A stretch of 64,000 bases of DNA from an uncultured Pelagibacteraceae bacterium (GTDB lineage Bacteria; Pseudomonadota; Alphaproteobacteria; Pelagibacterales; Pelagibacteraceae): NCBI GenBank assembly GCA_902587755.1, contig CACIMN010000003.1:124001-188000 (forward strand), written 5' to 3'. The translations under genes were made by a program, and so were the position numbers. Positions 23,944 to 27,641 of the stretch are shown here, piece after piece; the first letter of the stretch is position 1, and each line of letters starts with the position of its first letter. Below the pieces are notes generated by a model. That model was not told the DNA's origin. It saw nothing but the letters and a program-made list of their open reading frames with translations, and did no database searches.

Positions 23944-25434
23944 ATGAAGTTATTTTTTATACTTGGTAATCAATTATTTCCAACAAAATACCTAGACCGC
24001 TTCAAAAAAGACCACCTATTTTTTATGGCTGAAGATAAGGGTTTATGCACTTATGAAAAGCATCATAAACAAAAAATTTTATTATTTTTATCTTCTATGC
24101 GTTCTTATGCAGACGGATTAAGAAAAAACAAATTTAAATTAGATTATTTTAAAATCGAAGATAAAGAATTTAATGATGATTATTTAAAAAAATTAAAAAA
24201 AATAATTACACAAAAAAAAGTAAAAGAAATTTCAAGTTTTGAAGTAGAGGACAAATTTTTTGAAAAAAAAATTTCACAATTTTTAAAAAAAGAAAAAATA
24301 CACTGGAATATTGTTCAAACTCCTATGTTTTTAAATTCAAGAGCTGAATTTAAAAATTATTTATCAAAATCCAAAAAACCTTTTATGGCAACTTTCTACA
24401 AGGATGTTAGAAAAAAATCTGGAATATTGATGGGTTCTGATGGCAATCCAGTTGGAGGTAAATGGAGCTTTGATGAAGATAATAGAAATAAATTACCTAA
24501 AAATATATCAATTCCTAAATTTCCAAAAATAAATGAAACGAGACATACAAAAAAATTAAAGCCTATTATTGAAAAGGAATTTAAAAATCACCCAGGGAGT
24601 ACAAATAATTTTTGGTTTGCAACAGAATACGAAGACGTAGTTAAACTTTTAAATTTTTTTATAAAAGAAAAATCAAACTTATTTGGTGATTATGAGGATG
24701 CAGTTGATCAAAAAGACAATATTTTGTTCCATAGCGCATTAAGTCCTTATATAAATTTAGGTTTAATTACTCCTGAATTTGTTATTCAAAAAGTTTTAGA
24801 CTTTCATAAGAAAAATAAAATTAGAATGAATTCTTTAGAGGGTTACATCCGCCAGGTGATTGGTTGGAGAGAATTTATGCGTGGAATTTATCAGTCATAT
24901 TCACAAGAAATGGAGAATGGAAATTTTTTTAAACAAAATAGAAAAATGAAAAGTTCTTGGTACGATGGCACCACTGGTCTTCTACCTTTAGATTATGCAA
25001 TTAAAAACGCGGTTAATCATGGTTGGTCACATCACATTGAAAGATTAATGATCTTATCGAACATAATGAACCTTTGTGAGATAAAGCCAACAATTGTTTA
25101 TAAGTGGTTCATGGAGATGTTTGTAGACTCCTCAGATTGGGTAATGGTTCCAAATGTATATGGTATGGGATTATTTAGTGATGGAGGAATATTTGCTACC
25201 AAACCTTATATTTGTGGCTCTAGTTATTTTATGAAAATGATGGATTTTAAAAAAGGTGAGTGGTGTAACACTATGGATGGTCTCTACTGGAGGTTCATAG
25301 ATCGAAACAGAAAATTTTTTTTAAAAAATCCACGTTTGTCGATGATGGTAAGGATATTTGACAAAATGAAATCTGACAGAAAAAAATTAATTTTATCAGA
25401 CGCTGATAAATTCATAAAAAAAAATACAATTTGA
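23944..25434 (+). CDS. Cryptochrome/photolyase family protein (FeS-BCP/(6-4)-photolyase-related, DPRP)
   Basis: [66 protein letters not shown]. Confidence 0.93.
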
Positions 25435-25562
25435 TGAAAAAAGAAAATTTGCCAACTAAAACATGTCCTGTCTGTAAAAGACCTTTTACATGGCGAAAAA
25501 AATGGAAGTTGAATTGGGAGAGAGTAAAATATTGTTCCAAGAAGTGTTCTAAGCTAAGCTAA
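25434..25562 (+). CDS. DUF2256-like 42-aa zinc-ribbon-type protein (not in ORF track)
   Basis: [45 protein letters not shown] overlaps the photolyase TGA (TGATG); CxxC...CxxxC. Confidence 0.88.
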
Positions 25563-26287: not shown

Positions 26288-26505
26288 ATAATAAAATTTT
26301 TGAATGGGCAGGAGTTATAACTGCAATATTGTATTCTTTGTTTGTCGCCTCGAATATAGGGATAGAATTTTTCGGTTTTTGTTTATTATTTTTGTCAGCA
26401 ATTTTAATTGGAATTTGGGCTTATAGAGGAGGACATAAGGGAATTTTGTTTCTACAATTTTTTTATGCAACCGCTGGAATTATTGGAATGGTTCGTTGGT
26501 TTTAA
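26284..26505 (+). CDS. Small hypothetical membrane protein
   Basis: 73-aa hydrophobic ORF overlapping the upstream gene by ATGA. Confidence 0.7.
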   Translation: MNNKIFEWAGVITAILYSLFVASNIGIEFFGFCLLFLSAILIGIWAYRGGHKGILFLQFFYATAGIIGMVRWF

Positions 26506-27641
26506 TTAAAGCTTGAAACTATTTTAGGAATATAATTTTTAAAATTAAAAAAACCTTTATTACAGTATTGCCAAGCTAATTGATCAAGATTTCTATATAA
26601 AAAATCTATCTTTAAATTATTAGAATTTAAAAAATCTAAATTTTCACCTACAGTTGGATACAAACCGTAATAATTTTCAATATTTGTTAATTCACTTATA
26701 TCTATAATTTGACAATCAATGGATTGATTTTTTAATCTTTGTTCTTGGTCTTTTATTAAATGAGATTTAAATTTCACTAACTTTTCACTGAGTTTTATTG
26801 CTCTATTTTCATTTTTATTAGAAACTAAGTAAATTTTCTTGAAATTGTTTTCCTTAAAGTCAGTGATTTCAAACGAGAGATTATTTTCAAAAATTAAAAG
26901 TTTCTTATTCTCAATCTTTTGTGGGTTATTGAAATCCTGTTTAATTATTTGATAAGATTTTTCAGATACTTTTGGAGGAGCATTCTCATTTAATTTTATA
27001 TTTTGAAATCTATTGTTAGTGAATTTTTTAATATTCCATTCACTTGCAAGGTAGTGTTTGCCCTGAGTTTGAACTCCAGCCACCCATCGCCATCCAAGAG
27101 TATTTGATGCTGCATCTCCATCATAAAGATGTTGCAAAAAAAATTCTGCACCCAATTGCCAAGGTAATTCTAGAGTAAAAATCCAAATACTAGCAAACCA
27201 CATTCTTGTATGATTATGTAAATAATTATTTTCTTTTAGCTCGTTTACCCATTCATTAAAGCAATCTATTTTTGTTTTTCCTCCGATTGCTGCAATATAA
27301 TCTTTATTATCTCTAAATTCATTTTTTATTTGATTTAATTCGACAAGATAATCAGTCCAAACATTCGGTCTTAGTTCTAACCAACCTTTCCAGTAAGTTC
27401 GCCATAGAACTTCTTGAATAAACTTTTCATTTTTTGAAAAAGAAAATTTACTCAGTGCTTTCTGAACGACTTCTTGCTCATTGATTATTCCATGAGTTAT
27501 GTATGGTGATAAGCAAGATATATTGGATCTTTTTTCAGGTCCAAAATCAAAATTTCTTAATTTTGAATATTCTCCAAGATTATTCTCAACAAAATTATTT
27601 AATTGATTTAAGGCCATGGCCCTTGAAGCTTCAAATATCAT
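26502..27641 (-). CDS. Photolyase-like FAD-binding protein lacking the N-terminal antenna domain, with a C-terminal alpha/beta domain
   Basis: SCLSPYITHGIINEQEV, FIQEVLWRTYWKGWLE, NYLHNHTRMWFASIWIFTLELPW, DGDAASNTLGWRWVAGVQTQGKHYLASEWNIKKFT. Confidence 0.9.
   Translation of the reverse strand: MIFEASRAMALNQLNNFVENNLGEYSKLRNFDFGPEKRSNISCLSPYITHGIINEQEVVQKALSKFSFSKNEKFIQEVLWRTYWKGWLELRPNVWTDYLVELNQIKNEFRDNKDYIAAIGGKTKIDCFNEWVNELKENNYLHNHTRMWFASIWIFTLELPWQLGAEFFLQHLYDGDAASNTLGWRWVAGVQTQGKHYLASEWNIKKFTNNRFQNIKLNENAPPKVSEKSYQIIKQDFNNPQKIENKKLLIFENNLSFEITDFKENNFKKIYLVSNKNENRAIKLSEKLVKFKSHLIKDQEQRLKNQSIDCQIIDISELTNIENYYGLYPTVGENLDFLNSNNLKIDFLYRNLDQLAWQYCNKGFFNFKNYIPKIVSSFN

Follow-up and report, generated by a model that had tools for sequence, protein, structure and literature searches.

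A probable NewPHL-class photolyase with inverted domain order and an antenna-like C-terminal domain in SAR11 bacteria

Results

The gene and its neighbours

The window (i.e., the whole 64,000-nucleotide stretch analysed here, from a genome of the Pelagibacterales or SAR11 group) carries at 26502..27641, on the minus strand, an ATG-start ORF encoding a 379-aa photolyase of putative NewPHL type. The plus-strand frame at 26502-27641 contains many stops. Since the open frame begins only 2 codons 5′ of the ATG and the gene on that side codes for a PsiE-family membrane protein, neither a frameshift nor an antenna domain overlooked further upstream accounts for the layout; the Pfam search of the protein found no N-terminal antenna domain (PF00875/PF04244).

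Of the 36 genomes sampled from the genus, 22 carry full-length orthologues, with 65–97% identity within the genus, as do two more genomes of the order; many of these genomes are incomplete, and two partial copies were seen besides. A further 80 genome loci were retrieved with 82–97% identity to the window protein, and the nearest named relatives, Candidatus Pelagibacter ubique and single-cell genomes of Pelagibacteraceae, place the window in SAR11. Against 16 relatives, the FAD half has a median dN/dS of ~0.10 and the C-terminal half one of ~0.15 (with synonymous sites near saturation), so that both halves are maintained by purifying selection. At the sequence level, the orthologues, the class-wide full-length homologues and the purifying selection in both halves confirm that the ORF is not a chance one.

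The genome holds three photolyase-family genes: a class I gene (475 aa), the NewPHL gene and a BCP-type (6-4) photolyase homologue at 23944-25434 on the plus strand. The latter is convergent to the NewPHL gene, lies ~1 kb apart from it and recurs in the flank of 72 of the 80 retrieved SAR11 NewPHL loci; none of the neighbours of the NewPHL gene points to another function. When compared to the Agrobacterium enzyme, the BCP-type protein lacks all four Fe-S cysteine positions (P, gap, gap, N), and the cysteines are also missing in two other rows of the comparison (L155, from Persicobacter, and L198). Prochlorococcus PromaPL likewise lacks the Fe-S cysteines (PMC9426592). A zinc-finger-like DUF2256 protein of 42 aa (E 9e-20) is encoded at 25434-25562 on the plus strand, its start codon overlapping the BCP-type photolyase stop codon (ATGA-type), and is a predicted translationally coupled small partner of that photolyase gene. 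Note that in another alphaproteobacterium (G095:C1:123835-130140), NewPHL, BCP and PF00875 genes are all found within ~6 kb.

Domain layout and catalytic residues

The earlier note had described a photolyase with its FAD domain first and an alpha/beta domain last at 26502-27641, and Pfam, the ORF and AlphaFold2 agree on this layout. The N-terminal catalytic FAD-binding domain (residues 1-205; 27027..27641, minus strand) contains the sole Pfam match of the protein (FAD_binding_7, residues 74-198, E 2.7e-16). In the phmmer search against the PDB, residues 7-197 align only with the catalytic domain of E. coli photolyase (its residues 204-395), and no PDB chain aligned by sequence past approximately the FAD domain. 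The two motifs quoted in the earlier note are located here, NHTRMW at residues 143-148 and DGDAASNTLGWRW at residues 174-186. A linker (residues 206-243; 26913..27026, minus strand), with little conservation of either length or sequence among family members, leads to the C-terminal alpha/beta ‘Z-domain’ (residues 244-379; 26505..26912, minus strand), which was delineated with AlphaFold2, Foldseek and hhalign and ends in the family motif W..(A/C)..GFF.FK..IP.

The FAD and CPD-contact residues were mapped through the phmmer alignment to E. coli photolyase, whose residue roles (FAD contacts, CPD contacts and tryptophan chain) we take to be established. Y25, S42, E77, W80, R81, N143, R146, M147, D174, D176, N180, W184 and W186 are kept, and the CPD-contact residues are invariant in the family. 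W184, in the triplet W184-R185-W186 (27084..27092, minus strand), aligns with E. coli W382, the tryptophan closest to the flavin in the electron-transfer chain, and W161 (27159..27161, minus strand), the second of the pair, aligns with E. coli W359 and is invariant in the family. The third position, E. coli W306, is replaced by F109, and no family row of the alignment has a tryptophan in this column or in the adjacent ones. The tryptophan chain of the SAR11 protein thus reads as a dyad, W184 plus W161. No Fe-S cysteine cluster was found in the window protein, which has four scattered cysteines (43, 127, 310 and 360), none of CxxC type.

Family membership

Homologues with the same domain order and similar length, 32–60% identical, are spread across Alphaproteobacteria, including plasmid-borne copies in Ruegeria TM1040, Asticcacaulis, Novosphingobium, Niveispirillum and Peteryoungia that are either annotated only as ‘FAD-binding domain-containing protein’ or left unannotated. 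They were detected in ~20 of 288 sampled alphaproteobacterial genomes (full-length ORFs included), and in the Pseudomonadota sample the full-length matches were all alphaproteobacterial among the matches listed. Most members of the family are 33–45% identical to the window protein. The viral contigs scanned with the family alignment yielded no relatives, and no phage record covered 80% of the window protein.

In the FAD-domain tree (IQ-TREE, 62 rows, in which the SPL-type rows were assigned by kind and are not authenticated SPL sequences), 22 FAD-first alphaproteobacterial rows form one group (100/99), with the window protein inside among its SAR11 orthologues. Class I (99/100) and BCP (100/100) each form one group, both apart from the NewPHL-type group, and the SPL-type rows are also separate from it; how NewPHL, SPL-type and class I branch relative to one another is not resolved by the 62 rows. 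The window protein lacks the PF00875-then-FAD order of class I, falls far under the NCBIfam cut-offs and stands separately in the tree. Its FAD domain comes first, a small domain is C-terminal and there is no N-terminal antenna domain, as in NewPHL.

The C-terminal Z-domain

The proposal that the C-terminal region adopts a Rossmann-type fold held up, since its ~140 residues, modelled alone (residues 238-379, 37 close relatives), gave an alpha/beta fold with pLDDT 76 and pTM 0.72 and the element order b-b-a-b-a-b-a-b-a-a; the whole-protein model (31 close relatives) had a pLDDT of 43. By its model, the Z-domain alone appears Rossmann/HUP-like. The Foldseek search against the PDB, a check that the earlier note had called for, placed PhrB, an Fe-S (6-4) photolyase, at rank 1 (E 0.018, prob 0.95), with PhrB again at ranks 7 and 18, Rhodobacter cryptochrome B at rank 33 and other Rossmann-like or HUP-like folds among the matches. 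None of these Foldseek matches passes E 0.001, TM-scores are ~0.45, and the match to the PhrB chain (matched part not indicated) is by itself only suggestive of an antenna.

Profile-profile comparison with hhalign, run without secondary structure, gave a probability of 75 for the Z-domain against Phr5-type domains (51 with query and template swapped), 43 against the class I antenna and 34 against the BCP antenna. The controls reached 2.6 (Usp), 0.2 (ETF, response regulator and TrkA_N) and 0.1 (own FAD domain), the best of 100 column-permuted BCP alignments 5.6, and reversed alignments at most 7.2. For comparison, the antenna domains of class I and BCP match each other at only 6.3. The class I antenna matches Usp with a probability of 75, and therefore the method also detects the wider HUP class. 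The case is thus for a HUP-type, antenna-like domain, short of proof for direct descent.

Discussion

Our results suggest that the gene very probably encodes a NewPHL, an inverted-topology photolyase. NewPHL was reportedly described by Emmerich et al. in 2020 (Nucleic Acids Res 48:12845), with the proteins A8LJA9 of Dinoroseobacter shibae and M7YZC8 of M. mesophilicum. The membership proposed here draws on the architecture, the clade, the published features and the close-family relatives rather than on alignment to these two proteins, the nearest proxy for D. shibae NewPHL in the comparison being that of Ruegeria TM1040, from the same family Roseobacteraceae. The W184/W161 dyad with F109 and the kept Asn match the published ‘a mere Trp dyad’ of D. 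shibae NewPHL (PMC8948257) and the conserved Asn near FAD (PMC12083526). FAD-first order, a small C-terminal domain and an alphaproteobacterial host are shared as well; the SAR11 protein differs in its AT-rich streamlined host genome, in its length (379 aa, towards the lower limit among the homologues) and in an activity that is only predicted. The domain order is already that of a described family, namely NewPHL (PMC13274461, PMC9426592), a case that the earlier note had listed as counting against its reading, and the SAR11 protein adds a member to this family; the evidence that the C-terminal domain is antenna-like is a modest addition.

The antenna-profile matches together with the top match to PhrB point to a genuine inversion of the domain order, in which the antenna-type domain is reduced, rather than to an antenna-less form. 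Among the two readings first proposed, ‘permuted’ is therefore the better one, and the ‘antenna-less short class’ was not borne out, since the window protein lies outside the SPL-type rows and its antenna-like domain has moved. SPL is reportedly a short, antenna-less photolyase (Xu et al. 2021), and some authors treat NewPHL and SPL as synonyms. It is extremely unlikely that the window protein is such an SPL with an unrelated C-terminal add-on: it does lack an N-terminal alpha/beta domain, but its FAD domain is outside the SPL-type rows, it has no Fe-S cysteine cluster, and its C-terminal domain matches antenna domains with probabilities of 34–75 against at most 2.6 for the five controls and at most 5.6 for the 100 column-permuted alignments. 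The description in PMC9649867 gives SPL no alpha/beta domain and an Fe-S cluster, whereas the window protein has the former at its C-terminus and no cluster of cysteines for the latter.

Other inverted photolyases offer further comparisons. Phr7 of Prochlorococcus has an N-terminal FAD domain and a C-terminal Z-domain without Fe-S cysteines (PMC9426592), as does the SAR11 protein, and both hosts are open-ocean bacteria; Phr7 is however cyanobacterial and was compared by description only. Phr4+Phr5 and Phr6 are photolyases with inverted domains (PMC9426592) and share with SPL-type proteins and ours the FAD domain first and the antenna-type alpha/beta domain last (often in a second ORF), although many of them have Fe-S cysteines and they occupy separate rows in the FAD tree. 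PhrB (FeS-BCP or prokaryotic (6-4) photolyase, PDB 5kcm/4dja), whose chain ranks first in the Foldseek search with the Z-domain, differs in its opposite domain order, its lesion and its very distant FAD domain.

By analogy with characterised relatives, the N-terminal helical domain would bind FAD, and blue/UVA light would excite the fully reduced flavin, which would pass an electron to the cyclobutane pyrimidine dimer; the dimer would split and the electron return to the flavin. Oxidised flavin would be re-reduced through the two-tryptophan chain W184 and W161. The C-terminal alpha/beta domain, of shrunken antenna type, would pack on the catalytic domain and close the FAD site; Emmerich et al. 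2020 reportedly state that the NewPHL C-terminal domain seals this site. The substrate would be CPDs in single-stranded DNA, beside the class I photolyase and the BCP-type (6-4) homologue of the same genome. Light-driven CPD repair, chiefly of single-stranded DNA, is thus the most likely function. Architecture, family membership, residue conservation and C-terminal antenna similarity come from sequences and models; FAD binding, CPD repair and single-strand preference are expected from the relatives, conserved CPD residues being no proof of activity or preference.

Two other functions were weighed. A cryptochrome-like light sensor that lost repair is very unlikely, even if other photolyase-family lineages became photoreceptors and two further photolyase homologues are present in the genome. 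Indeed, the CPD-contact residues are kept and family-invariant, no signalling gene is adjacent, and characterised NewPHLs repair CPDs (PMC13274461). A NewPHL that also repairs double-stranded DNA, or (6-4) lesions, and is thus not single-strand specific appears improbable, though less remote: the specificity is known only from other, distant alphaproteobacterial members (family identity being mostly in the range given above), but the residues are of CPD-enzyme type and the gene next door already encodes a separate BCP-type (6-4) homologue.

Beyond the window, all eight SPL-type FAD-domain genes inspected from alphaproteobacteria (L121-L128) are directly followed by a same-strand alpha/beta ORF. 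Six of these eight ORFs match the C-terminal domain of L138, a Deinococcus protein in which the two parts are fused (phmmer E 4e-11 to 3e-20), those of L121 and L122 matching it more weakly, and a Persicobacter protein (L139) is likely a second fused case. A hand-picked set of the alpha/beta ORFs matches the class I antenna profile with an hhalign probability of 96 (E 6e-9), compared to only 43 for the Z-domain. Because the adjacent ORFs are antenna-like, each ‘antenna-less’ short photolyase may be one half of an inverted photolyase that is split in two, an arrangement already described for phr4/phr5. We tentatively suggest, as a possibility that is somewhat less than even, that the Z-domain is an antenna domain that was moved and reduced, that NewPHL and SPL-type proteins (the latter with their alpha/beta half in the next ORF) share the FAD-first order, and that both come from an order-inverted two-domain enzyme, neither being a primitive antenna-less ancestor.

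Altogether, the evidence for an antenna-like Z-domain is relevant to the proposed origin of the superfamily from short or inverted photolyases. SAR11 bacteria rank with the most abundant cells of the sunlit sea, and the gene occurs in most sampled genomes of the genus; therefore, the predicted single-strand CPD photolyase, although of an already known enzyme class, would be a common UV-defence enzyme, widespread in nature.
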